Of a DNA stretch of 64,000 nt, positions 12,928-64,000 are shown piece by piece. The number at the start of each line of letters is the position of its first letter. Positions within the stretch are counted from its first letter, which is position 1. The notes under the pieces were generated by a model that did no database searches, had not been told where the DNA came from, and was given only the letters and a program-made list of their open reading frames with translations. The stretch is from Burkholderia seminalis DSM 23518 (GTDB taxonomy: Bacteria; Pseudomonadota; Gammaproteobacteria; Burkholderiales; Burkholderiaceae). The stretch spans positions 405,655 through 469,654 of the forward strand of contig NZ_CADFDK010000004.1 in the NCBI RefSeq assembly GCF_902832885.1, given 5' to 3'. The position numbers were made by a program, and so were the translations under genes.

Positions 12928-12971
12928 AGTTTGAACGCAGGGGCGAAAATCGAAGCAATTTGGCCGGTTGC

Positions 12972-13373: not shown

Positions 13374-13392
13374 GGCTGATTGAAAATCAGCC
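13374..13392. repeat. Hairpin reusing the AATCAG motif
   Basis: GGCTGATT and AATCAGCC flank a GAA loop, 134 bases before the autotransporter start. It shares the AAAATCAG core with the dyad at 12972-13019. Confidence 0.4.
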
Positions 13393-13526
13393 ATGAATAA
13401 ACTGGCGTCACATCGCGACCGCCGGGGCGGACGCTTTTGTCCGTGATTTTCTGCTGCGCGCCGTCCGGTGCGGCCGAAATACCGCAATACCCATATCAAA
13501 AACCAAAGCTAAAAACGAGGGAAAGC

Positions 13527-46641: not shown

Positions 46642-46895
46642 CGGAGCGCAACGAGGGAGGTGGCAGGCCCGCTTGCCGGATACGGGCAGGCGCGGTGGAC
46701 GCCCGATGGTAATGCAGGATCGCGTTCTTCGGTGCTTCGCCGCCTCGTGGCGCGAGCGCGGTCCGGGTGCGCAGGCGCAGCCGTGCGCGTGGCGTTCGAG
46801 CCGGGAACACGCCCGATTTAACGCTTCATTACGATAGGCTTAACGGAATGGTGCTAAATTCCCGTCGATATCTCGAAAATCAGAAGGGCGGACAG

Positions 46896-47330
46896 ATGCT
46901 GAAGAAACTGGGTGTGATGGCAGTGGTGGCCGGCGTGACGGCGATGGTGTCGTTGCCTGCCGTGGCAGGCGATACGAATAACGCACTGGGCGGTGCGCTG
47001 GGCGGCGTCGCGGGCGCGGCGGTCGGCAATGCGATCGGCGGCAGCACGGGCACGGTCATCGGCGGCGCGGTAGGCGGCGGCGCGGGCGGTGCGGTCACGT
47101 CGAACAAGCGCGAGCGCACGGGCGCGGTCGTCGGCGGCGCACTGGGCGGCGGTGCGGGCGCCGCAGCGGGCAATGCGATGGGCGGTACGGCGGGCGGTCT
47201 CGTCGGCGCAGCCGTGGGCGGCGGCGCGGGCGCGGCGCTGGGCGGCCACGTGTCGCGCAACAACGCCCGTTCCAACGACCACTACCACGGCAACAAGCAC
47301 AAGAAGAAGCGCAACAAGCACTACGACTGA
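46896..47330 (+). CDS. Secreted glycine-zipper protein
   Basis: 144 residues. A signal peptide (MLKKLGVMAVVAGVTAMVSLPAVA) is followed by several glycine-zipper helices such as ALGGALGGVAGAAVGNAIGG and AVVGGALGGGAGAAAGNAMGG. A basic, His-rich tail ends YHGNKHKKKRNKHYD. It is probably an envelope-associated protein; the zippers suggest oligomers in a membrane. AGAAGGGCGGAC precedes the ATG. Confidence 0.8.
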   Translation: MLKKLGVMAVVAGVTAMVSLPAVAGDTNNALGGALGGVAGAAVGNAIGGSTGTVIGGAVGGGAGGAVTSNKRERTGAVVGGALGGGAGAAAGNAMGGTAGGLVGAAVGGGAGAALGGHVSRNNARSNDHYHGNKHKKKRNKHYD

Positions 47331-47695
47331 GCGTCGGTTTCCCGGTGCGTGCCGATCGTGCCGGGTGATCGACCGCGTATGAGCGGCGAGGGCGGCGGTC
47401 CGGCCGACGTCCGTCTTTCCGCCTTCGATGCGCCGTGCGTCGAGCATCCGATGCTGGAGGAGGCGTCAAGCCGCGTCGACTGCGTCGCTTGATCGCCTGC
47501 GCCGACCAAGCGCCCCGGTTGCACGACCGGTACTGGCGTATCGACAAGCTGACGTTCAGGCATCGTGGCCGTCTTGGTCATCGGTCCGGCAACGGATGAC
47601 GTTGATGCAGTGATTGGCACAGGCAAGGCCCGGATAAGAAGTCGCAGAGAAGGCAAGAAAAATCTCCGTCGTAGCGTTGTTGACGACGAATATCT
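47331..47695. other. Spacer at the left edge of the peptide-export cluster
   Basis: 365 bases between the glycine-zipper gene and the tolC-like stop. No gene, integrase fragment or clear terminator is seen. Composition changes from GC-rich to moderately AT-richer toward the right. Confidence 0.5.
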
Positions 47696-49168
47696 TCATG
47701 GCGCTTCAGCGTGCGGCGTCCAACGCTCGCCGTCGAGCGTCCCAATCGAAAATGCCAGCACTAGCCTCGACACACGCCAATCGGCCTGAGATTGCACGAC
47801 CTGACGTCGCGCCGTTGCGAGGGTAGTTTGGGCGTTCAGAACATCGAGCAGGGGACCGACGCCGGCACTGTAGCGTTTGCTCGCCACGTCGTACGCTTCC
47901 TGCGCGCTTTCCTGCGTCGAAGAGGCGACCTGTAGATTGGCCGTCTTCGTTATCACGTCCTGATAGTTGCGCCATACTGCCGACGCGACTTCCAGTTCGG
48001 CTTTGTGCAGGCTTGCGCGGTCGATATCAACTTGAGCTTCCGATGCCTGACGGTGATACTGCTGACCAAACCCTGAAAAGATCGGGATGCTGATCTGAAT
48101 TCCCACATATTTGCTGTACGTGCGCGTGTCGCGTGGAAATGCGCCTAATGACTTGTCGTTGCTCAACGAGCCGGACAAGGAAATCGTGGGCAGTTCCTCC
48201 CTGTGTGCAAGTTTCGCGTTCGCGTCGTCAGCTTCGATCAGGGCTTGCGCCTCGCGTACCTTCGGGTTGACAGCTTTTGCGAGCGCCAGCAGATCAGCAA
48301 TCGAAGACGTGAAATTCACGTCCGGTTGAGCGCCCGCGCTCACATCGACTTCAATGGAGGTTTCGACGGGAATTCCCATGCGTAGACACAAGGTGCCCTG
48401 CGCTGCCTTGAGCGCACCTGTCGCGTTCACGCGTGTGTAAATTGCTTCCTGCCACGCGGCCTTTGCCTGCAATTCATCGTTCAGTGTACCGGCGCCTGCA
48501 AGGTGTTTATGCCGGGCAATCTGAAAGCTTCGTTCGGCATTCGCCTCGGCGTTGCCCGCAGCATCAAGTGTGCTTTGTGCAGTCCAGACTGAGTAAAACG
48601 CCGCTGCGGCCTGTTCGAACACAGATTGCAGTGCTTCGGTATGGCTCGCCTTGGAAAGCTCAAGAAGACCGTTATAGTAGGCCAGATTCGCGTCACGCCT
48701 TCCGAAATCGAAGAGCACCCACGAGAGCCGCAACTCGTCATAACGATCCGATGCGCGGCCCATCGCATCAGGCAGTGTCGGACCAGATAGGGTTTCGGTT
48801 TCAACTGTACGCGAACGTGTGCCACTGGCGTCTAGCGTCGGCAACCACGCAGATTTTGCGACACCCACCTGAGCCGCGTTCAAGACCATGTTCGCCCAGC
48901 TCTCGCGCACGGTCGGATCGCTGCACAGAGCGCGGCTGACTGCGTCATACAGGGAAACAGGCGAATGAAGGCTCGCGTCGCTACAGGCGCCTGTAGCGCG
49001 TGCCATCCGGTTCAAATAGGGCGACACGTCTTCCAGTCCTCTTCGCGTCGAAAAAGGATCGAGTTGCGCATGCGTCAGCGGAACGACGAGCATGGCGACC
49101 GCGAGGCAGGCAACAACGAGCGCACAACGGTATGAAAGCGTCTGAAGCGCGACATTCTTCTTTCTCAT
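47696..49168 (-). CDS. TolC-family outer-membrane efflux protein of the peptide exporter
   Basis: 490 residues with a signal peptide (CALVVACLAVAMLVVPLTHA). The two tandem TolC halves are recognisable: SLYDAVSRALCSDPTVRESW ... LSWVLFDFGRRDANLAYYNG, then LLALAKAVNPKVREAQALIE ... ISIPIFSGFGQQYHRQASEA and YSAGVGPLLDVLNAQTTLATAR. It would form the outer-membrane duct. It is the last gene of a six-gene minus-strand unit and its ATG overlaps the ABC gene stop by 4 bases. Confidence 0.9.
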   Translation of the reverse strand: MRKKNVALQTLSYRCALVVACLAVAMLVVPLTHAQLDPFSTRRGLEDVSPYLNRMARATGACSDASLHSPVSLYDAVSRALCSDPTVRESWANMVLNAAQVGVAKSAWLPTLDASGTRSRTVETETLSGPTLPDAMGRASDRYDELRLSWVLFDFGRRDANLAYYNGLLELSKASHTEALQSVFEQAAAAFYSVWTAQSTLDAAGNAEANAERSFQIARHKHLAGAGTLNDELQAKAAWQEAIYTRVNATGALKAAQGTLCLRMGIPVETSIEVDVSAGAQPDVNFTSSIADLLALAKAVNPKVREAQALIEADDANAKLAHREELPTISLSGSLSNDKSLGAFPRDTRTYSKYVGIQISIPIFSGFGQQYHRQASEAQVDIDRASLHKAELEVASAVWRNYQDVITKTANLQVASSTQESAQEAYDVASKRYSAGVGPLLDVLNAQTTLATARRQVVQSQADWRVSRLVLAFSIGTLDGERWTPHAEAP

Positions 49169-51258
49169 GCTGTTTCCCGAACCTGCCCAAGTTCGATGAC
49201 GCGATCAGCTGTTGCGATGGTTTCAGGACGGTGCGCGACAATGATCCGCGTGATGTTCAGCTTGCGCATCGCCGCGTTCACGGCGCGCTCGTTGTTCACG
49301 TCAAGATGGCTCGTCGCCTCATCGAGCAGGAGCAGTTTCGGACGGCGGTAAAGGGCGCGTGCGAGCATCACGCGTTGCCGCTGACCTGCGGACAGGGCAG
49401 ACCCCATGTCTCCGATATAGGTGTAGTAGCCCATGGGCATCGCACGAATATCAGCATTGACGGAAGCCATTTCCGCGCATTCCGTGATCCACGCGAAGTC
49501 GGGCGTTGGATCGAAGAAACTGATGTTCTCGGCAATCGATCCGGCGAACAGTCGATCCTCTTGCATCACGACGCCGATCAGGGAACGATAGTTCGCAAGC
49601 CCCATTTGCCGAATCGGTATTCCGCCCGCGATAATTTCCCCCGAATACGGTGCCAACAAGCCTGCGAGCAGTTTCAGCAACGTGGTTTTGCCTTGGCCAG
49701 ATGGCCCGACAATTGCAACAGCTTCGCCGGCCTCAACACGCAGATCGAGGTTGTCGATGATCTTCGGTCCGTTCTTCGAATAGCTGTATGACAATTTCTT
49801 GACTTCGAGCGTCGGCACAAATTCATCCACGTCCGGCGCTCGCATCACTTCATCCGGCTCCCGTTTCGTGAGCACGATATCCGCCAGTCGCGCCGCGTGA
49901 AGTTTGAGAATTCGCAGCTCGTAAACTTTGTCGATCAACGCAGTAAAGCGTGCGGTGAACTGCCCACGATAGGACAGGAAGGCGAACAGCATCCCGAGCG
50001 AGAGCGACCGGTCAATGACGGCAAGCGCGCCGAAGTAGGTTACGAGAATCGCTTCGAGCCCGAAGATGAAATGATTGCTTGTGGTGGCGATCAGTTGAAG
50101 CCGTCGCGTTCGCAGGTCGGCGTTCTTCTCGCTTACGATCACATTCAGCCAGCGGGCTAGCCGGTCCTCCGCCTTACCAAACAGGCGCACGCTCTGAATG
50201 CCTCGGACTGATTCCATGAGCAGACTTTTGCCTCGTGCGGCGAAAACAATCTGCTTCTGGTTCGACATGCGCAGTGCGCCATAAATACAGGCGCGCAAGA
50301 TCGCGTAGAGCACCACGGCAACCACACTGATAAGCGATAGCCGGGCGTTGTAGACGATCATGATAATGATGGTGCCGATCGACATGAGACCATCGAGCAC
50401 GGATTCAACGAAGCCGACCGTCAGCGCTTGCTGGATCGTGTTGACGCTATCGAAGCGGGAAACGATATCGCCGATGTGACGTTTGCCGAAATAGTCGAGC
50501 GGCAGATTCAGCAGATGTCTGAACACGTTCGCCAACCATTGCACATTCACGAGCGTGCTGAACGTCGTGACAGCCCACGATCGCATTGCCTCTGTCGCGA
50601 TATGGATCACCAGCACCAACCCGAAACCCAGCGCCAAAATCAGAAGTAGGTGTCGATCGCCGGTCGTAATGGCTTGGTCCGTGACCCACTCGGGATAGAA
50701 AGGTGCAACGATGGTGAAGACTTCAAGCGCAAGGGCGAGCAGGAAGATTCTGAGCAGCCCGCGCCCGACACCACTTGCACGACCCATCAGGGAACGCAGA
50801 CCGATTTCCTGCTTGTCCCGGCGAGGCTGAAAGGCCGGCGTCGGCAAGAGTTCCAATGCCATGCCGCTGAAATGCAGCGACAATTCCTTGAGCGGCATGC
50901 GCCGCGCGCCGAGCGCGGGGTCAACCAACATCACATGATCGCGGCCAACTCGTTCGAGGACGACAAAATGCCGAAAATCCCAATGCAGAATGCACGGCAG
51001 CCGCAGCAGGTGAAGCTCTTCCGGCTCCAGTCGAACCGCGCGCCCGGCAAGATCGAGGGATGCGCCGATCTTGACAAGATCGAGCAGCGTCAGCCCCTTG
51101 AGTGATGGCGAAAAGCGTCGCCGCAACGTTGGCAGATCGGTGTCGTAGCCATGAAACGTTGCGATCATGCTGATGCAGGCAAGTCCGCATTCCGTTGCTT
51201 CGGTTTGCAAATGCACGTCAACACTACGCCGAAATCCGAATTGAAGTTGGCGGTTCAT
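49165..51258 (-). CDS. C39-peptidase ABC exporter (leader-cleaving bacteriocin transporter)
   Basis: 697 residues. The N-terminal C39 protease has its full triad: Cys24 in TECGLACISM, His97 in WDFRHFVVLE and Asp113 in LVDPALG. The membrane domain spans about 160-440, and the ATPase carries Walker A GPSGQGKTTLL, signature LSAGQRQR and Walker B LLLLDEATSHLD. PCAT exporters cut substrates after a double-glycine leader and pump the rest out. The obvious substrate is the GG-leader protein at 53763-54224. The adaptor gene lies 34 bases upstream and the TolC gene overlaps downstream. Confidence 0.94.
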   Translation of the reverse strand: MNRQLQFGFRRSVDVHLQTEATECGLACISMIATFHGYDTDLPTLRRRFSPSLKGLTLLDLVKIGASLDLAGRAVRLEPEELHLLRLPCILHWDFRHFVVLERVGRDHVMLVDPALGARRMPLKELSLHFSGMALELLPTPAFQPRRDKQEIGLRSLMGRASGVGRGLLRIFLLALALEVFTIVAPFYPEWVTDQAITTGDRHLLLILALGFGLVLVIHIATEAMRSWAVTTFSTLVNVQWLANVFRHLLNLPLDYFGKRHIGDIVSRFDSVNTIQQALTVGFVESVLDGLMSIGTIIIMIVYNARLSLISVVAVVLYAILRACIYGALRMSNQKQIVFAARGKSLLMESVRGIQSVRLFGKAEDRLARWLNVIVSEKNADLRTRRLQLIATTSNHFIFGLEAILVTYFGALAVIDRSLSLGMLFAFLSYRGQFTARFTALIDKVYELRILKLHAARLADIVLTKREPDEVMRAPDVDEFVPTLEVKKLSYSYSKNGPKIIDNLDLRVEAGEAVAIVGPSGQGKTTLLKLLAGLLAPYSGEIIAGGIPIRQMGLANYRSLIGVVMQEDRLFAGSIAENISFFDPTPDFAWITECAEMASVNADIRAMPMGYYTYIGDMGSALSAGQRQRVMLARALYRRPKLLLLDEATSHLDVNNERAVNAAMRKLNITRIIVAHRPETIATADRVIELGQVRETA

Positions 51259-51292
51259 GGTTGCTCTGGTTAGGGTAAAGCGTGAACTGCGG

Positions 51293-52618
51293 TCAGGGTG
51301 AGCGGCGGGTTAGCGTGTACAGCGGTTCCAGTACCCATTCGTACAGCTTGCGCGTATCGAGCACTACGTCTGCGTCGACGCGCATCCCGTCCTGCAAGGG
51401 AATCGACTCGCCGTAGGCGTTGATGGTCTGTGAATCGAGCGCAACCGTAATCTGATACAGGTTCTCGGACCTGTCGGCATCACCTGTTTCGGTTGCGGTC
51501 TGCAATTGCGACGGGCTCAAGGCGGTGCGAGCGATCTGCGTGACCTTGCCCGCGTAGGCCCCAAATTTCTGATACGGGAACGCTTCGTATCGCAATTCGA
51601 CGGGCGCGCCGATCTTGACGAAACCGACTGCCTTGCTCGGCGCAAACAGTTTCACGTCGAGGCTCCCGCCTTGCGGCAGTAGCGACATCAAAGGTGTTGA
51701 TCCGTTGACCGACTGGCCGGGACGAGTGAGCAGAGCCGTTACGGTGCCTGCGATTTGCGCCGGTATCGTGATCTCTCGGTTGGATTCGTTGTCGGCGATT
51801 TCGCCGTCCACCTGTAGCATTTGCCGACGGATCGAGTCCAGTTGGTTTTGTTCATCAAGCGGTGCATTTCGAAGATCAGCCTTAACCTGCGCGAGTTCCA
51901 CTTGAGAGGCCGTACGTTGCTTTCGCAGGTCTTCGAGTTGCGCCTGACTCATCAGCATGCTTTGCTCATGCTGCTCGAATTCGGATTGGGACACCACATC
52001 GTCACGCCGCAATTGTTCGAACCGCGCACTGTCGATTTCTGCCAGCTTTGATCGCGCCTCAAGGGTCGTGATTTCCGTCTCCAGATGCCGAATACCCGCG
52101 CTCAGTTCGATGGCCTTCGCCTTGAGCATCGCAATGTTCTGTTCGACGATGCTTTGTATATGCCGCGAGTCGCCTTCCAGGCTGGAACGCCGCGCATTCA
52201 GTTCAACACCGATCTGCTGCCGCGAGTTGCCGCCAGCGATAGTGCGCTCTGTTGACACGACGACCAAAGGCCGGCCGACATTAACCACGTCTCCTTCGTT
52301 GACGAGCACGCGGATAACCGTGCCGACCGTTGGCGCGAATATCTCCGCCGCGCCGTTGTCGATCATGACCCGGCCTTGTACTTCCTCCTTTCGCGTGTAC
52401 TCGCCGAAGATCATGAACAACACGACGGCGGTCGCGATTGCGAAGAACACGATGCTGGTCGTGAGGCTGCGTGCCGAACCCGTCAGCACAACCTCACCGA
52501 GCCATTGATGCTGACGAAATTCGAGCGCAGCGGGGCGGAATAGCAATGCACGGTTACTTTGCCGTGGCTGTTTCTCTTCCGGCTGCTCTGCGTTGGGGAC
52601 GGTCGATGTCTCGCTCAT
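51293..52618 (-). CDS. HlyD/CvaA-type membrane fusion adaptor
   Basis: 441 residues. A single membrane anchor (TTSIVFFAIATAVVLFMIFG, ~residues 52-71) is followed by a barrel-sandwich half (IFAPTVGTVIRVLVNEGDVV), a long coiled coil (~130-290) and the second half (IPAQIAGTVTALLTRPGQSV). Adaptors of this type link the ABC exporter to TolC across the periplasm. It sits between the CPBP and ABC genes with short gaps. Confidence 0.92.
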   Translation of the reverse strand: MSETSTVPNAEQPEEKQPRQSNRALLFRPAALEFRQHQWLGEVVLTGSARSLTTSIVFFAIATAVVLFMIFGEYTRKEEVQGRVMIDNGAAEIFAPTVGTVIRVLVNEGDVVNVGRPLVVVSTERTIAGGNSRQQIGVELNARRSSLEGDSRHIQSIVEQNIAMLKAKAIELSAGIRHLETEITTLEARSKLAEIDSARFEQLRRDDVVSQSEFEQHEQSMLMSQAQLEDLRKQRTASQVELAQVKADLRNAPLDEQNQLDSIRRQMLQVDGEIADNESNREITIPAQIAGTVTALLTRPGQSVNGSTPLMSLLPQGGSLDVKLFAPSKAVGFVKIGAPVELRYEAFPYQKFGAYAGKVTQIARTALSPSQLQTATETGDADRSENLYQITVALDSQTINAYGESIPLQDGMRVDADVVLDTRKLYEWVLEPLYTLTRRSP

Positions 52619-52642
52619 GCTTATCTTGTTGTCAGCGGATGA

Positions 52643-53596
52643 TCACACGCGCTGAGCATCGATGGCGCTTGCGGCTTCTTTAGATACAAACCAGCCGTTC
52701 GTCTTCTTCAAAAACCAGTACATCAAAGCGAAAGGCAGGACACCTTTGAGCATGGCAAAGACAACCGCGTCAGCTATCAGGACTGGATTGTTTACGAATC
52801 CGGACGTTGAAATTTGCGCATGTTGCTGCGCGTGGGAGAACAGGATCGGCAGCATCATTGCGCAGATGTTCATCATCGTATGCGCCCCGATCGACAGTTC
52901 CAGTCGTCGATCGCGTAAACTCAATGCAGAAAACCCAAGCGAGCAAAAGAACAGTGTCGTTTTGATGGGCCAGTCGTAATGTGTGTGGTAGATCGCGAAG
53001 AGGGCGGCAACGATTGCGACGACGATGAGCGGGGAACGCACATATTGCCCGAGCGTTTGCGTCAACCACCCACGGAAAAACAATTCCTCGGCGAACGCGA
53101 GAACGAGAATGCCGAGCCACGCGCCAAGCATCCCTAAAATCCGACCAAAACTTAGAATGTCCTGCAGCGGTTGAAGATGCCCGAACGGAAGCGTCCATGC
53201 GCCAATTCGAATCGACGTATAGATGGACATGACTAAGGCTGCTATCACGAAGGCAGGAAGATAAAGGACCGCGCCGAACAGGCAACGCCGAAGTCGGAAA
53301 CGCAGATCGACGGAAATCAGGGAAAGGTACGGGCGTCGCAAGACGATCTTGCATGCAAGCCAGAAGCCTATGATGCCCGTGGTGCTGGCTGTATTGGTGT
53401 ACAGCGAGATAGCTGCCCGAGCGGCATCAAAATTCTTGAAATACAGCGTCCATCCTGAAAACATCAGGACTCCAAGCGTGCCGATGATACTGACGATCGC
53501 GCTAAGAAGGATCGTCGATGCTGTTGCTCGCCAATCAGTTCGGCCAAGCTTGGCAAGATCAATAAACGCACGCGCTATATTGTCTTCAGTTTTCAT
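52643..53596 (-). CDS. CPBP (CAAX/Abi) intramembrane protease family protein
   Basis: 317 residues with about eight membrane segments. The three CPBP motifs are intact: Glu170-Glu171 with FFRGW (AEELFFRGWL), His in AIYHTHYDWP (204/206) and HTMMN (239-243). The ATG at 53596 is preferred over a TTG at 53644 because MKTEDN starts a typical cytoplasmic tail. In bacteriocin loci CPBP/Abi proteins often give self-immunity; a maturation protease is the alternative. It lies directly before the adaptor gene. Confidence 0.85.
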   Translation of the reverse strand: MKTEDNIARAFIDLAKLGRTDWRATASTILLSAIVSIIGTLGVLMFSGWTLYFKNFDAARAAISLYTNTASTTGIIGFWLACKIVLRRPYLSLISVDLRFRLRRCLFGAVLYLPAFVIAALVMSIYTSIRIGAWTLPFGHLQPLQDILSFGRILGMLGAWLGILVLAFAEELFFRGWLTQTLGQYVRSPLIVVAIVAALFAIYHTHYDWPIKTTLFFCSLGFSALSLRDRRLELSIGAHTMMNICAMMLPILFSHAQQHAQISTSGFVNNPVLIADAVVFAMLKGVLPFALMYWFLKKTNGWFVSKEAASAIDAQRV

Positions 53597-53762
53597 GGAA
53601 TTATGATCGAGTGAAACAACGGTTGCTTGCTTTTGGCGACGCAATTTTCGGTGCGCTGTGTGGTGCTATACCGATGAAGATAAGGCGTCCAGTCGCGGGA
53701 CCAGTAGCGCGCCGTCATTCATCGATCAGGCTTGGTTCATAGCCTGTACACCAGAGCGTTGC

Positions 53763-54224
53763 TTAGTGGTTGTGACCGCCGCCGCCGATACCGAGCCCGT
53801 GAGCGGCAGCGCCAACCGCGTATCCTGCGGCGAAACCGATCGGAGAAGATTGGAAGGAGCCGAGGTTGGCAGTTTCAGCCTGACCTAACGACAGACCCTG
53901 TTGCGCGGCGTCATATCCGGCAACGGCCGCACCGCCCCACGTGGACATTGATTCGTCCTGCAAGCCCTTCGTGGCTTCCGCGAGTTGACCGTTGTTTTCA
54001 GCCTGCCCGATGGCATCGTTGGCATTGGAGTTGAAGCCTGCGTCGGCCAACGACGTCGCGTCGCTGCCTACTGCCGAATCGGCTGCGGAATCACCGTCGC
54101 CGTCACCATCCCCGTCGCCATCGCCATCGCCGTATCCGCCACCATCACCATCGCCGTCACCGCCGCCATCACCATCACCACCAGCCACGTAGCGCAGCAA
54201 ATCCAGATCGTCAATCGTTTGCAT
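53763..54224 (-). CDS. Double-glycine-leader secreted protein with an Asp-Gly repeat (candidate bacteriocin/effector)
   Basis: 153 residues. AGGAG lies 8 bases before the ATG at 54224, which decides the start over a GTG three codons earlier. The leader MQTIDDLDLLRYVAGG is acidic, has hydrophobic -4 (Val) and -7 (Leu) and ends in Gly-Gly, the C39 cleavage pattern. The predicted 137-residue product begins with a 29-residue run of Asp-Gly (residues 17-45, one Tyr), continues with a Ser/Ala/Asn-rich middle and ends with a Gly/Ala-rich hydrophobic stretch (GFAAGYAVGAAAHGLGIGGG) and HNH. There are no cysteines. I do not recognise the family; the Asp-Gly run may bind calcium. Confidence 0.8.
   Translation of the reverse strand: MQTIDDLDLLRYVAGGDGDGGGDGDGDGGGYGDGDGDGDGDGDGDSAADSAVGSDATSLADAGFNSNANDAIGQAENNGQLAEATKGLQDESMSTWGGAAVAGYDAAQQGLSLGQAETANLGSFQSSPIGFAAGYAVGAAAHGLGIGGGGHNH
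54090..54176 (-). repeat. Asp-Gly coding microsatellite-like repeat
   Basis: Codons GAT/GAC and GGT/GGC alternate, giving near-hexanucleotide periodicity. Such a tract could change length by slippage without breaking the frame. It encodes residues 17-45 of the GG-leader protein, immediately after the predicted cleavage site. Confidence 0.7.
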
Positions 54225-54334
54225 GTGATTCACTCCTGAAGTATGCGGGTTTGACGTCTACATCCACAATGGCACCCGCGCAGCCATTGATTCACAATCG
54301 GTTGTCGAAACAGCTGACGCGAAAAGGTTGTGCG

Positions 54335-57097
54335 TCAGGATTCCGAGCGTTGCAGCACTTGCGACGGCGGTTGCGTGTGCGCCTGCTCGATGAATGCGCC
54401 GCGCACTGGAAGGGGATTTGCGTCGTCTGCTATCGCCCACGTCAGGCAAGGAGCGACTTCCCAGGTTGAGGCCGGAATATCCGGCAGCGCCGCGATGAAC
54501 GACTCTTCGTCCGTCCATTGATGCAATGTCGATACAGGCAAGAAAGCTTGCGTCTGATTGCCATTTCGGCATATCAGTGCATCCCGATCCATGCGGAAGT
54601 GACCGCGACAGCGCGAGCGATCAACAGGACGGCCTCTGAATATCAGTGACAGGAACATGTGCGATGCACCGGCACCTTGGTCCGGCAGGGACTGTTGCAG
54701 ATCACGCAAATTCGCCATCTTGGGTGCCGGCACAAGCTGCGTTGTGAACGCTGCATCCATGTACCGAGTGACGGCCAGAGCGGAAAGTCGATCTACCACG
54801 CCCGAGAGCGAATCTTCCAGCTCATCCTGCTTTCGCGGATCGAGCAACCACGACACGAAGCGCGTCAGTGTCGTCGCGTCGTATGGAAGCGGAACGCCAT
54901 AGGCCGGCCACGACATGTCATCGGTCTGTCGTTTAACGGTATGACGGTAAAGCGTGTGCCCTTCACTGGGCGTCAGTTTGGCGTTGCGCAGCGCGTGCAG
55001 ATACTGGCCGTGTTCGTTGCAGTATTCAGGGGAGTTCGGCAGCCCACCGCCGAGCTTGCCGCCTGCCGTTGCGCGCACGAGTATTCCGAATTTCTCGTGA
55101 TCCAACTGATCGACTGCGACTTGCTCAAGCGGTCCGAACAGACTTACGCCAATGGCGGTATCGCGAAGCGAATCGACGGCCAGGTTCGCGCACGCCTTCG
55201 TCACCGCCACGATGACCGACAATTCCGGTGATAGGTCGCTTGAGTCGAACGTCCATTGACCGCCGCGCCCGATGCGCTGCAAAGTCGCGCGATTTCGCAG
55301 GCTCACGAAGACACCACCTTGCGGGAGAGCGCCGGTCAATTTGTATCCTAGCGGATCAGGCAGAGCGGTACGATTCGCAATTGCATCGACAGCACGCCGC
55401 GCAAGCTGTAATGCGGTCACGTCGACCGTCGACTGCCCGTCTTGTGCTGGTTCGCGCACGACTGGCGGCGTCACGGACACGCCGTACAGGCGATTGGCCG
55501 TCGTCGCAACCGTGAGCATCTGATTAACCGCGTCATATTCGACGGCGGTTGTCACGGCATCAGGAAGCTGAAACACACCAGCGAGCGCAAACGTTTGAGG
55601 ATCGATTGCACGTACGCGCCCGTTCGTGCTTCCGAACCAAATCCATGGGCCGATGCGGGCAGGAGACGAAAAAATCTTGGAGTGCGCGCCGATCTTCGCG
55701 ATGCCTTCGCCGGTCGCCAAATCGATCACGTACAGGTACTTGTCCGTAGAGCCGCAGTAGGCGCGAGCGCCGTCGATCAGCGGTGTTGTGTAGACGGCGT
55801 TGCCGGTCTGGATGCAGAACTTCAGTTCGCCGCTATCGAGGCTTACGCCGCGAATGCCGCCGTCGAACGATCCGAACACGACTTGCCGGCGATCGGGATC
55901 GAGTGCGGGCGCATGCTTGACCGCGCCGTTCGTCTGAAATTGCCAACGGAGTGCGCCGGTACGTGCGTCGAGCGCCAGCAGAGCACCGTCGTTCGTGCCG
56001 CAGAGCACAAGCGAATCATCAGCGGCATAGAGCGGGGAGCCGTGGACGTAGCAACGGACCGGGCATTCCCAGACCTTGTGACCGGTTTCAGCATCGATCG
56101 CGGCTATGCCGCCGCCTCGCGTTGGACTGGCGTATTCAACGCCGATAAAGACCAGATTCAGGTCGGATGCGTAGGCCGGTGAAGAGCCAATCCAATCGGG
56201 TTCGACGTATCGCCAGATTTCCCGGCCGCTTTGGGCGCACAACGCGTACAGGTTACCGTCGTAGCCGCCGAAGAAAACGCGTCCGGGCGTCACGTACGGC
56301 GTAGACCAAATCCCTTTTGAGCGCGCCGCCTCGATCTTGAAACTCCAGCGCGTTTCGCCGCTTGCGCCATCGATGCAGCGCATTTCGCCGCTGTCGGTTC
56401 CGAAATAGATCAAGCCGCCTTGCGCGCGCGGTGCGGATTTCGGTACGACATAGTGGTGATTCGCGGAGGTCGCTTTGCTGAGCCAGCGCACGAGGAACGA
56501 AAGCTGCGTCGAATGGCTCGTCGGAACCGACAGTTTCAGGCCGAAATCACCTAGAACGTATGCGGACTCTACTGTAACGCCATGTCGCTTTTGCCAGTCC
56601 TCACCCGTATTGGACTGGTAGTCGATCACGCTCCACACTTTCCAGATGGGGCGATCAATTTCCGCTAATACAACGCGTGATTGTTCAATGCTCGCGCCGC
56701 TGTTGAAAATATCATCCACGAGCAGAATAGGTGCATCCGAAACCTCGCCTTCGATCGCGTTCATCCGGCCATAACGCTTACGCTCTTTGTGAATGATGAA
56801 GCCGCCGAGATGGTGCCCTTTGCGTGCGCCGGCCATAAGAATCGCAGCCACGAGCGGGACGGCGGCCATTTCCATGCCGCCGACCTGAAACGGCAGTTGA
56901 TCCGCATAGCGATTCCAGAATAAATCCGCAAGCGTATCGAGTCCTTCCGAAGAAAGAAGGAGTGGTCGCAAATCGATCAGCCATTTAAGGGACTTTCCGC
57001 TTGACGATACAAGCTTGTATTTTGGTGCGCGAAATATGCATTTCGACTCAATTAAATTACGTAACGCCGCCCGCCTGTCCAGGTTGGAATCATTCAT
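54335..57097 (-). CDS. Phosphoribosyltransferase-propeller fusion of unknown function, possible AMMECR1-like C-terminus
   Basis: 920 residues, first gene of the export cluster. Residues ~1-210 resemble an orotate-type phosphoribosyltransferase: FQVGGMEMAAVPLVAAILMA, IIHKERKRYGR and the PRPP loop PILLVDDIFNSGAS (123-136). Residues ~225-545 are a PQQ/quinoprotein-like beta-propeller with repeats such as GEMRCIDGASGETRWSFK, GNLYALCAQSGREIWRY and GALLALDARTGALRWQF. Residues ~560-720 (GGVFVSLRNRATLQRIG) and possibly ~735-905 (RDALICRNGNQTQAFLP) recall AMMECR1-type domains, by eye only. It has no signal peptide, so is probably cytoplasmic. A role in substrate modification or regulation is inference. 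Confidence 0.75.
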   Translation of the reverse strand: MNDSNLDRRAALRNLIESKCIFRAPKYKLVSSSGKSLKWLIDLRPLLLSSEGLDTLADLFWNRYADQLPFQVGGMEMAAVPLVAAILMAGARKGHHLGGFIIHKERKRYGRMNAIEGEVSDAPILLVDDIFNSGASIEQSRVVLAEIDRPIWKVWSVIDYQSNTGEDWQKRHGVTVESAYVLGDFGLKLSVPTSHSTQLSFLVRWLSKATSANHHYVVPKSAPRAQGGLIYFGTDSGEMRCIDGASGETRWSFKIEAARSKGIWSTPYVTPGRVFFGGYDGNLYALCAQSGREIWRYVEPDWIGSSPAYASDLNLVFIGVEYASPTRGGGIAAIDAETGHKVWECPVRCYVHGSPLYAADDSLVLCGTNDGALLALDARTGALRWQFQTNGAVKHAPALDPDRRQVVFGSFDGGIRGVSLDSGELKFCIQTGNAVYTTPLIDGARAYCGSTDKYLYVIDLATGEGIAKIGAHSKIFSSPARIGPWIWFGSTNGRVRAIDPQTFALAGVFQLPDAVTTAVEYDAVNQMLTVATTANRLYGVSVTPPVVREPAQDGQSTVDVTALQLARRAVDAIANRTALPDPLGYKLTGALPQGGVFVSLRNRATLQRIGRGGQWTFDSSDLSPELSVIVAVTKACANLAVDSLRDTAIGVSLFGPLEQVAVDQLDHEKFGILVRATAGGKLGGGLPNSPEYCNEHGQYLHALRNAKLTPSEGHTLYRHTVKRQTDDMSWPAYGVPLPYDATTLTRFVSWLLDPRKQDELEDSLSGVVDRLSALAVTRYMDAAFTTQLVPAPKMANLRDLQQSLPDQGAGASHMFLSLIFRGRPVDRSRCRGHFRMDRDALICRNGNQTQAFLPVSTLHQWTDEESFIAALPDIPASTWEVAPCLTWAIADDANPLPVRGAFIEQAHTQPPSQVLQRSES

Positions 57098-57482
57098 GGT
57101 TTTTTTGTCGGTCGATTATTTCACGTGTCCCCGCCGCGATTCGCCTGTACAGGCGGATTACATCAATCCCCATCGCACTATGTGGGATCTTGCGATCGCC
57201 AAGAATTTCAGTTATATTAACGAAAGATTGCGGATGCATTCCGCATTTGACGCTCGGAATCACCTGCGTGGAGTTCGAATTCTGCATTTCTCATACGAAG
57301 CAAAGTGAAGGTATTTTTAGAATATTTTCACGAATGAATTCATTGTGAATTTTTTATTGGTGATATAGGTGAGATTATTTCGCGCGACAGAAGCTAAATA
57401 TTAAATTTAGAGATAGTAAAAAGCGCGGCCATCGAAATTAAATTCTCGTTGAAACCGATTTCAGTCGAGTGGGTGCTTTGGA

Positions 57483-57502
57483 GCGAACACGCCGGTGTTC
57501 GC
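57483..57502. promoter_or_regulatory. Perfect 20-base dyad
   Basis: GCGAACAC-GCCG-GTGTTCGC, 386 bases before the first gene of the export cluster. Neither side has a T tract, so an operator is more likely than a terminator. Confidence 0.35.
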
Positions 57503-58005
57503 AACCTGAGCGGCCTAAGAAGGCCCCTGACACGGTGTCTTTGTCTTATAAACGCGACAAAGTGCCGGATGCGTGATCGTCAACCTGGCATCAAATGAAA
57601 GGTCCGCGTGTCAGATTAATTTGACATAATTAACATGGCGCCGAAAAGTCTGTGGTAGCCATAGGGAATTCCAAGTTCTGTACGCGTGCACTCCTAGTCA
57701 GGTGTGTACCGCTGCATTGCAGGAGCGGGCGGTGGAGTAAGGAAACGCCGGCTTGATGCAGTCAACAGTCGCCCATACGCGACTTCAGCGCGCAGCAGCC
57801 GGTGCATCGGTCGGTGGTCGATCACGCTGTAGCGCCGAGGGCGTGTGGCGACCTCTTCAAGCTATTGTTTTATTGAGGAACATTCGCGGGCGTTCGCAGC
57901 CGGCGTGGGTCCTTGCAAGTTCCGATTTGAACGAAAAAAATTCCAAGTTGGATGCATCTCGACAGCCATGCCGGTTCATCCGACCGGGTTTCCGCCCGCT
58001 TGCTT

Positions 58006-58059
58006 CCGTGAAATTGCCGTGCTAATTTTTCATGAAATTTCTCGGCGTAATTTTCACGG
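58006..58059. promoter_or_regulatory. Clustered TGAAA half-sites, candidate operator of puuB
   Basis: CCGTGAAATT (58006) and AATTTTCACGG (58049) are near-exact complements. Between them lies the palindrome TTTCATGAAA (58028-58037). The group ends 8 bases before the puuB start. The adjacent XRE-cupin regulator is the likely binder. Confidence 0.45.
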
Positions 58060-58067
58060 GAGCGCGC

Positions 58068-59357
58068 ATGTTCGTGCAGTCCGACCGTCACGTCGCAAGC
58101 TACTACGCCGGCACCTACCCGGCGTCGATCCCGCATCGTCCCGCACTGGACGAACGCATCGATGCCGACGTGCTCGTCGTCGGCGCGGGCTTCAGCGGGC
58201 TGCATACGGCGTTGCGCCTGGCGCTGGCCGGCAAGCGCGTGGCCGTACTCGAAGCGAGCCGCGTCGCGTGGGCGGCGTCGGGGCGCAACGGCGGGCAGGC
58301 GCTGCTCGGCTGGTCGTGCGACATGCAGCCGCTCGAGGATTCGCTCGGCCGCGACGGCGCTCGCCTGCTGTGGGACAGCATGCGCTGGGCGGCGGCCGAG
58401 GTGCGCGAACTGCCGGCGCGGCACGGTTTCGACATCGACTACCGGCCGGGCAGCCTGTGGGCGGCCGTACGGCCGCGTCGCGTCGCGATGCTCGCGCAGG
58501 CGCGCGACGAGGCGGCCGAGCGCTGGGGCTACGACCGGCTGCGGGTGATCGGCCGTGACGAGCTGCCCGAATGGATCGGCGGCAAGCGTTATCTCGCCGC
58601 GCTCCACGATCCGGAGGCCGGCCACCTGAATCCGCTGAAGCTCGCGCTCGGCCTCGCACAGACGATCGAGCGCGCGGGCGGTCGTATCTTCGAGCAGAGC
58701 CGCGTGCTCGACTGCCGCGAGACGGCCGGCGGCCACGTCGCGCGCACGTTACGCGGCGAAGTGCGCGCCGACGTACTCGTGCTCGCGTGCAACGCCTACG
58801 TCGACCGCCTCGATCGGGAGCTTGCGCGCCGGCTGCTGCCGGTCGGCACCTACCAGGTCGCGACCGCGCCGCTCGCGCCCGACGTCGCGCGTGCGCTGCT
58901 GCCGCAGAACAGCTGCGTGATCGACAACCAGTTCGTGCCCGACTACTTCCGCCTGAGCCCCGACAACCGGTTGCTGTTCGGCGGCGGCTGTACGTATCTC
59001 GGCGGAATTCCGGCCGATATCGCGGCGGCGACGCGGCCGCACCTCGAACGCGTGTTCCCGCAACTGGCCGGCGTGCCGCTCGACTACGCATGGGGCGGCC
59101 ATATCGACATCAGCATGCGCCGCACGCCTGACATCGGCCGACACGGGCAGCGTTTCTGGCTGCAGGGCTTCTCGGGGCACGGCGTGCTGCCGACGCTGGC
59201 CGGCGCGCGCGCGGTGGCCGACGCCGTGCTCGGCGACGAACGCCTGCTCGCGCAGTACCAGCGCATCCGCAACCCGCGTTTTCCCGGCGGCGACCGGCTC
59301 GCCGCACCGCTGGAAGCGATCGGCAAGGCCTGGTACCGTTTGCGCGATACCGTCTGA
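58068..59357 (+). CDS. puuB: FAD-dependent gamma-glutamylputrescine oxidase-like oxidoreductase
   Basis: 429 residues of the DAO family. The FAD dinucleotide motif is ADVLVVGAGFSGLHTALRLA, followed by WAASGRNGGQALLG and the C-terminal FWLQGFSGHGVLPTLAGAR. GGGAG precedes the ATG at 58068; an upstream in-frame ATG at 58032 is less likely. In the Puu pathway this enzyme oxidises gamma-glutamylputrescine to the aldehyde. The assignment rests on its neighbours, a PuuA-like synthetase and an XRE-cupin regulator. Confidence 0.85.
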   Translation: MFVQSDRHVASYYAGTYPASIPHRPALDERIDADVLVVGAGFSGLHTALRLALAGKRVAVLEASRVAWAASGRNGGQALLGWSCDMQPLEDSLGRDGARLLWDSMRWAAAEVRELPARHGFDIDYRPGSLWAAVRPRRVAMLAQARDEAAERWGYDRLRVIGRDELPEWIGGKRYLAALHDPEAGHLNPLKLALGLAQTIERAGGRIFEQSRVLDCRETAGGHVARTLRGEVRADVLVLACNAYVDRLDRELARRLLPVGTYQVATAPLAPDVARALLPQNSCVIDNQFVPDYFRLSPDNRLLFGGGCTYLGGIPADIAAATRPHLERVFPQLAGVPLDYAWGGHIDISMRRTPDIGRHGQRFWLQGFSGHGVLPTLAGARAVADAVLGDERLLAQYQRIRNPRFPGGDRLAAPLEAIGKAWYRLRDTV

Positions 59358-59373
59358 CCCACCGGAACCCGTC

Positions 59374-59931
59374 ATGAACGAACAGGAAGAGATAGAAAGT
59401 CTGGCGATCCTGATCCGCGACCTGCGCAAGCACCGCAAGGTCACGCTCAACGATCTGGCTGAACGGATCGGCCGCTCGGTCGGCTTTCTGTCGCAGGTCG
59501 AGCGCGGGCTGTCGCGCCCGACGGTCGCGGATCTCACCGCGATCGGCGAGGCGCTCGGCGTGCCGACCACGTACTTCTACAGCCTGAGCAAGCCGCGCAG
59601 CGTGCCATGGGTCACGCGGCCCGACGAACGGCGCACCGTGTATTACGCGGCCGGCATCACCGACATTCTCGTGTCGCCGAACATGCGCTCGCGCTTCTCG
59701 ATCCTCGAGAGTCATCTCGCGCCGGGCGCGAGCAGCGGCGAGCGGCCGGTCGACGACAGCGACGAGCAGGGCGGTTTCGTGCTGGAAGGAGAGCTGACGA
59801 TCTGGATCGACGGCGACGACACGCCGGTCACGCTCGGCCCGAACGACGCATTCCAGTTGCCCGCGCACAAGCGCTTCCGTTACGCCAACCTGACCGACGT
59901 GCCGACGCGCGTGATCTGGGTATTCACCTGA
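59374..59931 (+). CDS. puuR: XRE-family regulator with cupin domain, PuuR-like
   Basis: 185 residues. An N-terminal helix-turn-helix (LIRDLRKHRKVTLNDLAERI, SVGFLSQVERGLSRPTVADL) is joined to a C-terminal cupin (SRFSILESHLAPGASSGERP, GGFVLEGELTIWIDGDDTP, LPAHKRFRYANL). PuuR represses putrescine-use genes and releases DNA on putrescine binding. It is 16 bases after puuB and so probably autoregulated with it. Confidence 0.85.
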   Translation: MNEQEEIESLAILIRDLRKHRKVTLNDLAERIGRSVGFLSQVERGLSRPTVADLTAIGEALGVPTTYFYSLSKPRSVPWVTRPDERRTVYYAAGITDILVSPNMRSRFSILESHLAPGASSGERPVDDSDEQGGFVLEGELTIWIDGDDTPVTLGPNDAFQLPAHKRFRYANLTDVPTRVIWVFT

Positions 59932-60084
59932 GTGGCCGGCGGGGCATGCGGTGTCACGGGCCGCCGCGCTACTCGGCCTGTTTGCAGTACTGATTGAAAT
60001 GCGGCATGCAGGGTCACGCGTGCCGCGCGAATCCGGTTCGCCGCGTTGCGGCGCCGCCATACCAGGACATGGAAAGGATGAGAC

Positions 60085-61431
60085 ATGGCTGACGTCGTTC
60101 CCGCGCTGGTCGATGAAGTCCGCGCGTTCCGGCAGGCGCACCCCGAGATCCGTTATGTCGACCTGATCTGCCTCGATTTGCCGGGACACTTCTACGGCAA
60201 GCGTTACCCGATCGATGCGCTCGAAAAGGTCGCGGCCGGTTCGCTGCTTAAGCTGCCGCAGAACTGCGTGCTGCTCGGCACGCAGGGCGGCCTCTACAAG
60301 ATCGGCGACTACTGCTTCAACGACGGCGATCCCGACGCGCCGCGCCGCTTGATTCCCGGCACGCTGAAGCCGGTGCGCTGGGAGCGGCAGCCGCTCGCGC
60401 AGATGCTGATCAGTTCCGACGGCACCGATGCGCCGATCGAGTTCGAGCCGCGCGAGGTGCTTGCGCGCGTGCTGCGGCGGTTCGCGGCGCGCGGCATCCG
60501 GCCTGTCGTCGCGTTCGAGCTCGAGTTCTACCTGTTCGCCGCGCAGCTGGCGGAAGGGATGCCGCAGTATCCGCGCGACCGGTTGAGCGACGACCGCGAC
60601 GATCAGCCGAACATGCATATCGAGCGCCTGTCGCGCTTTTCCGACGTGCTGCACGAGATGGTCGATGCCGCGCGCGAGCAGGGTGTCGACGCGACGGTGA
60701 TCACCGCCGAGCTCGGGCCCGGCCAGTTCGAGATCAATTTCGGCCACACCGACGACGCGCTGCGCGCGGCCGACTGGTCGGCGCTGTTCTGCCGCAGCAC
60801 GCGCGGCGTCGCGTTGCAGCACGGCTATCGCGCGAGCTTCATGGGCAAGCCGTACCTGCATGCGCCGGGCAGCGGGATGCACGTGCACGTGAGCCTGTAC
60901 GACGACGCGGGGCGCAACCTGCTCGCGGCGGACGGGCAGCGGCCGTTGCGGCATGCGGTGGCCGGCTGCCTCGCGCTGCTGCCGCACTGCATGCCCGTGT
61001 TCGCGCCGAATCACAACGCGTTCCGGCGCTACGGGTCGATGGTGAATGCGGCGAGCCGCGCAAGCTGGGGCTTCGAGGATCGCGATGCATGCATCCGGAT
61101 TCCGGAGTCGGATGCCCGCAACCTGCGGATCGAACACCGGCTCGCGAGCGCGGATGCGAATCCGTATCTGGTGCTCGCGGCGATCCTGTCAGGGATGGAA
61201 CACGGGCTCGACGCGCGGATCGATCCGATCGCGCCGCTCAACGAGGATCGCGGCAGCGGGATCGATTTCCCGAAGGAGATGCTGTCGGCCGTCGCCGCGA
61301 TGCAGGATCATCCGGCCGTACGCGAAGGGCTCGGCAGCGAGTTCGTGATGGTGTATTGCGAAAACAAGCGGCAGGAAGAGCTGGATTTTCGCAATGAAAT
61401 CGGCGCGCGGGAGTATCGGTGGTTTCTTTGA
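60085..61431 (+). CDS. puuA: Gamma-glutamylputrescine synthetase-like glutamine synthetase family protein
   Basis: 448 residues. Catalytic glutamine-synthetase motifs are present: VAFELEFYLF, ELGPGQFEINFGHTDD, GSGMHVHVSLYDDAGRN, the ATP-site VFAPNHNAFRRY and RIEHRLASADANPYL. PuuA ligates glutamate to putrescine with ATP. It lacks the conserved adenylylation loop of GlnA. It completes a PuuB-PuuR-PuuA unit. Confidence 0.87.
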   Translation: MADVVPALVDEVRAFRQAHPEIRYVDLICLDLPGHFYGKRYPIDALEKVAAGSLLKLPQNCVLLGTQGGLYKIGDYCFNDGDPDAPRRLIPGTLKPVRWERQPLAQMLISSDGTDAPIEFEPREVLARVLRRFAARGIRPVVAFELEFYLFAAQLAEGMPQYPRDRLSDDRDDQPNMHIERLSRFSDVLHEMVDAAREQGVDATVITAELGPGQFEINFGHTDDALRAADWSALFCRSTRGVALQHGYRASFMGKPYLHAPGSGMHVHVSLYDDAGRNLLAADGQRPLRHAVAGCLALLPHCMPVFAPNHNAFRRYGSMVNAASRASWGFEDRDACIRIPESDARNLRIEHRLASADANPYLVLAAILSGMEHGLDARIDPIAPLNEDRGSGIDFPKEMLSAVAAMQDHPAVREGLGSEFVMVYCENKRQEELDFRNEIGAREYRWFL

Positions 61432-61456
61432 CGGCCGTGCCGGCGGCTAGAGCCGG

Positions 61457-61984
61457 TCAGGGAAGCGCGCGCCAGTAGCGCACCTCCTCGATCGGCGTCC
61501 CGTCGATCTCGAACGTCTTGATGTCGTCTTCGGCGACGAAGCCTTCGCGTTCGTAGAATGCCCTGGCCCGAAGGTTCTTGATCAGTACCCACAGCGACAC
61601 CCAGGCATGGCCGGCATCATGCAGCGACCGGCACGCATGATCGACCAGCGCCGCGCCGATGCCTTGCCCGCAATGCGACGGATTCAGATAGATCGCTTCG
61701 ATTTCGCCCCACGCGCGATCCTTGTCGGTGTCGCGGGTCGGACCGTAGGCGATCCAGCCCGTCAACGCGTTTCCCGAGAGCGCAAGCGCGACGCACGGCC
61801 GTCCTGCGTCGAGTGCATAACGCCACCCGGCCGTGCGCTTTTCGATCGACAGGCCGGCGAGGAACGGAGCCGGCATGATGTCCGTGTAGGTCGCTTGCCA
61901 GGATGCGACGTGGATGCCGGCAATGGCGGGCGCATCGGCGGCGGTGGCGGCGCGGATGTCGATCGTCGTCGTGTTCGGTGCCAT
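61457..61984 (-). CDS. GNAT-family N-acetyltransferase
   Basis: 175 residues. Motifs: IDIRAATAADAPAIAGIHVA at the start, IEAIYLNPSHCGQGIGAALV with the acetyl-CoA loop, and VLIKNLRARAFYEREGFVAE. It is convergent with puuA, 25 bases from its stop. The substrate is unknown. Confidence 0.87.
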   Translation of the reverse strand: MAPNTTTIDIRAATAADAPAIAGIHVASWQATYTDIMPAPFLAGLSIEKRTAGWRYALDAGRPCVALALSGNALTGWIAYGPTRDTDKDRAWGEIEAIYLNPSHCGQGIGAALVDHACRSLHDAGHAWVSLWVLIKNLRARAFYEREGFVAEDDIKTFEIDGTPIEEVRYWRALP

Positions 61985-62034
61985 GCGTACCTCGCCTGAT
62001 CGTGTGCCGTGCGCAGCGTTGCCCTGCACGGAAT

Positions 62035-62613
62035 TCATTCCGCCGGATCCAGGCTGCTGTCGATGGCGAAACTGTAGCCGAGATCCACGTGTGACGCGTC
62101 GCTCGGCGTGTCGGTTTTCTTCAGCACGAACTCGAACGCGGGTTCGAACCAGCCGTTGCGCGGCACTTCGCCACCGAGGACTTCGACGTCGTACCAGCCG
62201 TTGTCGAGGTCGATCACGGGCCGGCCCGGTTCGCGATAACGCGCCAGCAGCGCGTTCACCGATTCGTCGTTGAAGCGTTCGAGAATGCGCCACGTGTAAA
62301 GCATCACCGAACGGTGTTCGACGCGTAGCACGTATCCGCCGCGCCGATGCTGCAGACGGCTTCCCGCCTTCAGCAGTTCGGGCGTGTCGTCGTCCAGCGT
62401 GAAGATGACCGTATACGGATGGTTCTCGATACCGGCCAGCGGAATGACGACGCCTTCGAGCACGGCGTTGTCGCCGCTGTCGCCGGTCGTGAACGCGAGC
62501 GCGACGTCGTCCGGCAGCCGATGTGTTTCCTTGTAGCGCTTCAGCAGCAGAAGATCGCCGACGAGGAAACAGTCGATCAGGTCGTTGAGGACTTCGGAGA
62601 ATTCATGCCGCAT
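62035..62613 (-). CDS. Hypothetical protein
   Basis: 192 residues, soluble and acidic, starting MRHEFSEVLNDLIDCFLVGD. It has beta-rich stretches (YTVIFTLDDDTPELLKAGSR, GWYDVEVLGGEVPRNGWFEP) and no membrane segment. I do not recognise the family with confidence; the layout recalls small immunity-like or DUF-type cytoplasmic proteins. Confidence 0.65.
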   Translation of the reverse strand: MRHEFSEVLNDLIDCFLVGDLLLLKRYKETHRLPDDVALAFTTGDSGDNAVLEGVVIPLAGIENHPYTVIFTLDDDTPELLKAGSRLQHRRGGYVLRVEHRSVMLYTWRILERFNDESVNALLARYREPGRPVIDLDNGWYDVEVLGGEVPRNGWFEPAFEFVLKKTDTPSDASHVDLGYSFAIDSSLDPAE

Positions 62614-62675
62614 CGTCGTGTCTTTCGAAGGCGGCGTGCCGCGACCTGCACGGCGGCACACCGCGTCCGAAGAGC

Positions 62676-63065
62676 TTACTCGCCGAGCTTCGACGTCACG
62701 CACCCCGTGCTCGAGCATTCGCGCTCACGCTCGCGCAGGAACGACAGCCGCGACTGCGTCATGTCGTTCGCGCACTGGATATCCACGAGGTAGCTGTTGT
62801 TGCGCGTTTCGCTGCACTGTGCATCGCGCTGCTTCAGCCACGCGAGCTGGCCGGCCTTCAGCGCGGCCTGCTGGTCGCCGCTCAGTTGCTTGCGCAGGCG
62901 ACCGTACTCGTCGTTGAGATCGCGATCGGATTGCGAGAACTGCGTGCTGGTGCAGTACACCTGGTCGAACGCGCTGCGCGGCTTCCCGCAGCCAGCCGCC
63001 TGTGCGGCGAACGGAACGGCGAGCGCGAGCAGCGCGCAGGATGCGAACAGCGTCTTCTTTTTCAT
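62676..63065 (-). CDS. LprI-like (DUF1311) periplasmic protein
   Basis: 129 residues with a signal peptide (KTLFASCALLALAVPFAAQA). The LprI/DUF1311 core is visible: Cys-rich SAFDQVYCTSTQFSQSDRDL, NDEYGRLRKQL, LAWLKQRDAQC and CANDMTQSRLSFLRERE. Family members in mycobacteria inhibit lysozyme; most proteobacterial members are untested. A lysozyme-inhibitor role here is inference. Confidence 0.82.
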   Translation of the reverse strand: MKKKTLFASCALLALAVPFAAQAAGCGKPRSAFDQVYCTSTQFSQSDRDLNDEYGRLRKQLSGDQQAALKAGQLAWLKQRDAQCSETRNNSYLVDIQCANDMTQSRLSFLRERERECSSTGCVTSKLGE

Positions 63066-63117
63066 CGTGATGCTCCTGACTGGGTGAAAACCGTTGGGCC
63101 CGATGGGCGTTCATCGT

Positions 63118-63882: not shown

Positions 63883-64000
63883 TGTTGTTGTCGCGGAGGG
63901 CATACGGTGCGTCGCACGGTGCGGCACCGTCGGCCTGCTCGATGCAGTCGGAATGTCGCGCGATTATAGCGTTTGGCGGCGGTACCGCAATGACGGACGA

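Follow-up and report, generated by a model that had tools for sequence, protein, structure and literature searches.

A microcin-like peptide-export island of Burkholderia seminalis that encodes a phosphoribosyltransferase-like/propeller fusion protein

The locus described here lies in a 64,000-nucleotide (nt) stretch, called the window below, of Burkholderia seminalis DSM 23518 (contig NZ_CADFDK010000004.1, positions 405,655 to 469,654), whose genome comprises 7.97 Mb in 55 contigs. Six genes occupy window positions 47,696-57,097, all on the minus strand, and encode, in order, a phosphoribosyltransferase (PRTase)/propeller/AMMECR1-like fusion protein, a peptide precursor with a double-glycine (GG) leader, a CPBP/Rce1-like intramembrane protein, an HlyD-family adaptor, a C39-peptidase ATP-binding cassette (ABC) exporter and a TolC-family outer-membrane channel. 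From the fusion to TolC, successive genes are separated by 110, 166, 24, 34 and -4 nt. A preliminary description, made from the DNA letters alone, had named these six genes, and they were recovered at the positions, on the strand and in the families it gave. Scans for promoters and terminators stayed at chance level (5 against a mean of 4.8 and 10 against a mean of 12.6, respectively), and a PADLOC search with five cluster proteins returned no match at E 0.01, leaving a described anti-phage role without support.

The exporter (49165-51258; 697 amino acids, aa) combines peptidase (PF03412, E 2.5e-31), membrane and ATPase parts. Residues Q18, C24, H97 and D113 (in LVDPA) of its C39 domain are present and Walker A, LSAGQ, Walker B and the H-loop of its ATPase are in place; these are presumably the catalytic residues, and they are intact, as first described. 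Its gene overlaps by 4 nt with that of the 490-aa TolC-family channel (47696-49168; PF02321, E 2e-54), and the 441-aa HlyD-family adaptor (51293-52618) was assigned by profile matches. When the exporter was compared with 72,556 plasmid records (tblastn), 992 matches were obtained at E 1e-100, all below 60% identity; among the matches listed (30 of 992), identities are 44-50% and carriers include Janthinobacterium, Burkholderia, Paraburkholderia, Methylobacterium, Acinetobacter and the 12,084-bp Moraxella plasmid NC_011131, which we take to be the bacteriocin plasmid pLQ510. The name pLQ510 is given to a bacteriocin plasmid in the literature (PMC2761928). Small open reading frames (ORFs) with a GG or GA leader lie near the exporter in three of six plasmid loci examined (L026, L029, L030). 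Judged by these similarities, the exporter is related to other Gram-negative peptide exporters. On the Methylobacterium nodulans plasmid (L029; 5429-5584 and 10524-11555), a peptide of 51 aa with a GA leader and a very high content of Lys, Ser and His is encoded close to a related exporter and to a gene of the FemA/FemB type.

The peptide gene (53763-54224) encodes a 153-aa precursor, for which a start at ATG 54,224, with AGGAG just upstream, is more likely than GTG 54,233. The precursor consists of the leader MQTIDDLDLLRYVAGG followed by a 137-aa core (predicted 12.7 kDa, or 12,738 Da if unmodified; isoelectric point 4.05) that carries an Asp-Gly repeat, a glycine zipper, GFAAGYAVG, near the C-terminus and a GGGGHNH tail. 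The leader, zipper and tail are identical in all three species in which the cluster was found (3/3), where precursors of 153, 150 and 156 aa are encoded. The Asp-Gly tract is encoded by mixed synonymous codons, which argues against simple recent slippage. Secretion with leader cleavage, as proposed in the preliminary description, is supported by the GG leader, the intact C39 exporter, HlyD and TolC, and we consider it highly probable from these predicted proteins.

The 317-aa CPBP protein (52643-53596; PF02517, E 3.6e-15), which more likely starts at ATG 53,596 than at TTG 53,644, has intact EELFFR, FAIYH and HTMMN motifs. At E 1e-40, 4 of 239 family genomes contain a relative of the CPBP protein: the window's own, Burkholderia puraquae and two others that share one genus code, one of which matches the place of a plasmid gene of Paraburkholderia sp. 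PREW-6R; a plasmid search with the protein gave one match. Within about 9 kb of the CPBP gene in those two Paraburkholderia-type genomes, no relative of the peptide, exporter or fusion was detected. The fusion was found in neither genome (0/2), in a search that lacked a positive control and therefore shows little. Such CPBP genes with no peptide or exporter nearby would fit orphan immunity genes. In Paraburkholderia solitsugae (L008:13572-15466) the cluster carries two tandem CPBP genes, 53% and 52% identical to that of the window.

The fusion protein (54335-57097; 920 aa) is built from an orotate-PRTase-like part (residues ~1-200), a BamB/PQQ-type beta-propeller (~205-545), an AMMECR1-like part (~564-717) and a C-terminus (~720-920) without a match. 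Its first part contains LLVDDIFNSG at residue 125, resembling the loop that binds phosphoribosyl pyrophosphate (PRPP), and matches TIGR00336 (E 1.9e-15) with 57.1 bits, below the cut-off of 106.8. A PRTase profile of seven relatives matched the solved orotate PRTase 2p1z at E 6.3e-15; PF00156 is not listed for the window's PRTase piece, and the P. solitsugae piece scores 12 bits against a cut-off of 26.3. Some lysines of the flexible-loop region are kept, together with a histidine in some relatives, and we assume these to be functional residues of orotate PRTases. For AMMECR1 (PF01871, cut-off 25 bits), scores are 24.0, 26.1 and 24.8 bits for the three orthologous C-terminal pieces and 19.9 bits for the whole 920-aa protein. 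The C-terminal half had no credible match among solved structures (best E 0.31), and hhalign found no similarity between the two parts of this half (probability 0.1%), a weak comparison because it rests on three close sequences. In profile searches the fusion had no match to a family that binds DNA or RNA, and none of the six cluster proteins matches a Pfam glycosyltransferase family.

The six genes form part of a horizontally moved unit. A 10.1-kb segment (47,503-57,601) is 94% identical in B. puraquae (L018), where it lies at a different genomic place, with a phage-type integrase and a transposase (rve) within 4 kb; beyond this segment, the alignment reported no further similarity to the 19-kb L018 stretch. 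Its guanine-plus-cytosine (GC) content is 56.7%, compared with 68.3% in the flanks (1-47,502 and 57,996-64,000). A third copy is found in P. solitsugae, on an 86-kb contig with ParA-like and DUF932 genes. Gene set and order are identical in these three species of two genera, apart from the second CPBP gene of P. solitsugae. The full-length fusion is present in 2 of 65 Burkholderia genomes (4 matches at E 1e-20), and a search of 398 family genomes, with two candidates scored per genome, returned seven fusion matches at E 1e-15, of which two are full-length, and no further genome with a full fusion. This distribution, the different site in B. puraquae and the drop in GC bear out the acquisition suggested in the preliminary description. 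Six relatives align to the right flank of the window, starting at 57,919-57,995, and three of them (L046, L047, L050) match the left flank as well, as far as 46,723-47,487; a clean empty site was not found, since these three carry 1.1-3.4 kb of other DNA at the spot.

All six genes are under purifying selection, with ratios of nonsynonymous to synonymous substitution rates (dN/dS) of 0.04-0.21 for each gene when the window is compared with both other species. The precursor has ratios of 0.131 and 0.064. The fusion, whose orthologues are 94% and 75% identical to that of the window, has ratios of 0.183 and 0.126, and its C-terminal part is less constrained (0.240 and 0.165). The left edge of the unit (47503-47690) retains a short remnant of a 372-aa ORF that adjoins TolC in B. 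puraquae (L018:4434-5552) and has no Pfam match. A glycine-rich, zipper-like ORF on the plus strand (46767-47330) lies just outside the unit, and seems not to belong to the island because its DNA is also present in G043 (L047). A second GC dip, to about 0.62, occurs at 12001-15000.

Full-length fusions were found together with the exporter in 3/3 cases, that is, not mostly without it, which answers the co-occurrence point of the preliminary description; the PRTase-propeller core also occurs without a window-type exporter. Five distant relatives (G027, G028, G168, G176, G183) are without the AMMECR1-like part; they share 53-85% identity with one another and 22-24% with the window over the PRTase-propeller part (24-26% in the family-search matches). 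A window-related exporter lies nearby in one of the five distant loci (L014, 30% identity), and no exporter match at E 1e-80 was obtained in two of six genomes searched (G168, G176). The C-terminal half of the fusion was detected only in its own genome among 249 genomes, and on no plasmid. A plasmid search with the fusion matched 30 records, none covering 80% of the protein; among the matches listed (20 of 30), the propeller part is what matched. The PRTase profile matched 5 of 299 family genomes and 2 of 11 genomes in the genus of G176, and the PRTase domain of L016 had no plasmid match. The PRTase-propeller profile matched only its own genome among 300 genomes of the order and 398 of the phylum, where the limit of E 1e-40 and the four or three candidates scored per genome make absence weak evidence.

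In three of the distant loci (L013, L015, L016) a small Gly/Asp/Glu/Ser-rich ORF directly precedes the PRTase-propeller gene; in L013 and L016 it ends 2 nt ahead of an in-frame ATG of that gene. When Gly/acid-rich ORFs were defined as those of 60-250 aa in which 30 residues include at least 27 G/D/E/S, at least 8 G and at least 8 acidic residues, exactly one such ORF is present, and adjoins the PRTase-propeller gene, in 6 of 8 PRTase-propeller loci, against none in a background of 59 stretches of 20 kb (1.18 Mb, six frames). The other two loci (L014, L017) hold RTX proteins with Gly-Asp repeats. For instance, L014:7817-17970 is a same-strand run of RTX, ABC, HlyD, TolC, glycosyltransferase-like and PRTase-propeller genes, whose predicted gene content indicates a type I secretion locus that includes the same enzyme core. 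RHS/immunoglobulin (Ig)-like giant proteins are encoded on the opposite strand in two further distant loci. Loci L013 (8029-13288), L015 (7792-12176) and L016 (7532-12772) each encode an ATP-grasp-like protein (weak matches), the small Gly/Glu/Ser-rich ORF, the PRTase-propeller protein and a conserved protein of ~380 aa without an assigned family, with a Cupin_8/JmjC-like protein also in L013 and L016 (profile-checked in L016); these three are candidates for undescribed modified-peptide loci. From this recurrent linkage it seems that the PRTase-propeller core accompanies proteins that are rich in Gly and acidic residues and are probably secreted.

Comparison with known systems shows that the exporter, leader and CPBP half of the locus is of an already known kind, and that the fusion is what is new. 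The microcin S cluster (mcsS-mcsI-mcsA-mcsB, class IIa) likewise combines a GG-type leader peptide, an adjoining CAAX/CPBP-family protein that was shown to give immunity, an HlyD adaptor and a C39-ABC exporter; a fusion enzyme is not among the four clustered genes named in that account (PMC3316575). The present locus differs in encoding TolC within the cluster and in having a larger, Asp-Gly-rich peptide. The Cdz contact-dependent bacteriocin of Caulobacter, of which related systems are reported in Burkholderia cepacia, also has a type I exporter, small glycine-zipper proteins, and CaaX proteases and islands nearby (PMC5380434). The zipper feature is shared by all three orthologues here (GFAAGYAVG, 3/3). 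Cdz-like toxins are described as ~5-10 kDa, compared with the predicted 12.7-kDa core, the Cdz proteins were judged likely unmodified, and as far as that description extends it includes no PRTase-propeller-AMMECR1 protein (PMC5380434). Class IIb microcins such as E492 are secreted microcins whose clusters do encode modifying proteins, and differ in that MceC, MceI and MceJ add a C-terminal glycosylated siderophore (PMC6071977). Orotate PRTases (PyrE; 2p1z, 5hkl) share domain-wide similarity, the PRPP-loop-like motif and parts of the flexible loop with the fusion, which differs in its additional propeller and AMMECR1-like parts, in altered loop positions and in scoring below the PyrE family cut-off. 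No paper was found in the open-access literature on the fusion, on a PRTase in a peptide cluster (contexts of ribosomally synthesized and post-translationally modified peptides, bacteriocins and propellers) or on a link between AMMECR1 domains and radical SAM; literature naming the two host species yielded general bacteriocin papers only. No microcin locus found here explains the fusion, as the preliminary description had supposed. Of its proposed new modified or secreted peptide system, secretion is supported; peptide modification is a hypothesis, and the half with exporter, leader and CPBP protein is not new.

On balance, we favour a microcin-like secreted-peptide operon in which the peptide is handled, and probably modified with PRPP, by the fusion. 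The fusion would act on the precursor before export, as the recurrent gene linkage suggests, with the propeller binding the Gly/acid-rich tract and the orotate-PRTase-like domain modifying it with PRPP; the AMMECR1-like half, which among the copies found is confined to those linked to the exporter, may be a specialisation. The C39 domain of the exporter would then recognise the precursor and cut after GG, and HlyD and TolC would pass the peptide outside, as the anatomy of the system supports. By analogy with microcin S, the CPBP protein would protect the producer, and self-immunity is in our judgement its probable role; a processing protease is a possible alternative. Once released, the 137-aa acidic peptide may act on bacteria nearby: the glycine zipper at its C-terminal end would insert into a membrane, and the Asp-Gly repeat would make it soluble or bind calcium. 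Antibacterial action seems to us slightly better than an even prospect, and modification of the peptide by the fusion slightly worse than one. The simplest mechanism is that the PRTase-propeller core binds and modifies Gly/acid-rich proteins with PRPP, with regulation or chaperoning as alternatives.

Several observations weigh against this reading. The PRTase loop differs from that of orotate PRTases at some positions, and PRTase domains can be regulators. The Gly/acid-rich criterion was set after the examples had been seen, its background was drawn from three genomes only (G176, G168, G000), and the independent linkage cases number about three, because L013 closely resembles L016 (85%) and the three loci of the full fusion are orthologues of one another. 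Gene order differs too: the peptide gene follows the fusion in the window, but in the distant loci the small ORF comes before the PRTase-propeller gene. The small proteins of those loci resemble the window peptide in composition without having a clear double-glycine leader. The window and P. solitsugae share only 53% identity in the CPBP protein but 85% in the peptide, which is contrary to the prediction of tight peptide-immunity matching, and Caulobacter killing is reported not to have needed the neighbouring CaaX-protease gene (PMC5380434). The 153-aa precursor is also longer than verified class II microcin precursors, for which 75-120 aa is a descriptive range (PMC9746304), and published work describes class IIa microcins as lacking modification (PMC3316575).

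Three other explanations were weighed. The peptide could be an ordinary unmodified class II or Cdz-like bacteriocin, with the fusion serving as a PRPP-sensing regulator or scaffold that controls expression or loading, and not as a modifying enzyme. Published accounts of the microcin S and Cdz peptides, in which these are unmodified or probably so (PMC3316575, PMC5380434), accord with this, as do the PyrR and Pur operon repressor structures among the weak matches of the PRTase profile; however, the fusion matches no DNA- or RNA-binding family, and its relatives adjoin different Gly/acid-rich proteins in loci without the window's exporter, so that a substrate relation fits better than control of one operon, and we think this explanation unlikely. 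Similarly unlikely is a peptide that is not antibacterial, acting instead in calcium binding or as a surface or biofilm component, with the PRTase-propeller family servicing Gly-Asp-repeat proteins generally. The Asp-Gly repeat of the peptide, the RTX proteins in both loci that lack a small peptide (one of these loci being a run of genes on one strand that includes a type I exporter) and the giant RHS/Ig-like proteins encoded on the opposite strand of two others would agree with such a role, whereas the CPBP-type gene beside the peptide reproduces the immunity layout of microcin S (PMC3316575), and the glycine zipper near the C-terminus and the orphan CPBP relatives also argue against it. Finally, the 110-nt gap between the fusion and the peptide gene would allow the fusion to be a passenger of unrelated function on the same island, but its linkage to the cluster is kept across genera at 75% identity, and the pairing of PRTase-propeller genes with Gly-rich ORFs recurs in the distant loci, making this improbable.

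A broader proposal, which we offer as speculative, is that PRTase-propeller proteins form an undescribed PRPP-using family that adds (phospho)ribosyl groups to secreted peptides rich in Gly, Asp, Glu and Ser and to repeat proteins secreted by the type I route, of which family the window would represent the microcin branch and a new modified-peptide class. Should the fusion not modify the peptide, Burkholderia would still have in this locus a microcin-like island of an unusual kind, whose candidate immunity gene is open to testing. If the fusion does modify the peptide, PRPP would be the donor for a peptide modification, for which no precedent was found in the open-access literature, and more such systems could be found by a simple marker, the pairing of a PRTase-propeller gene with a small Gly/acid-rich ORF.

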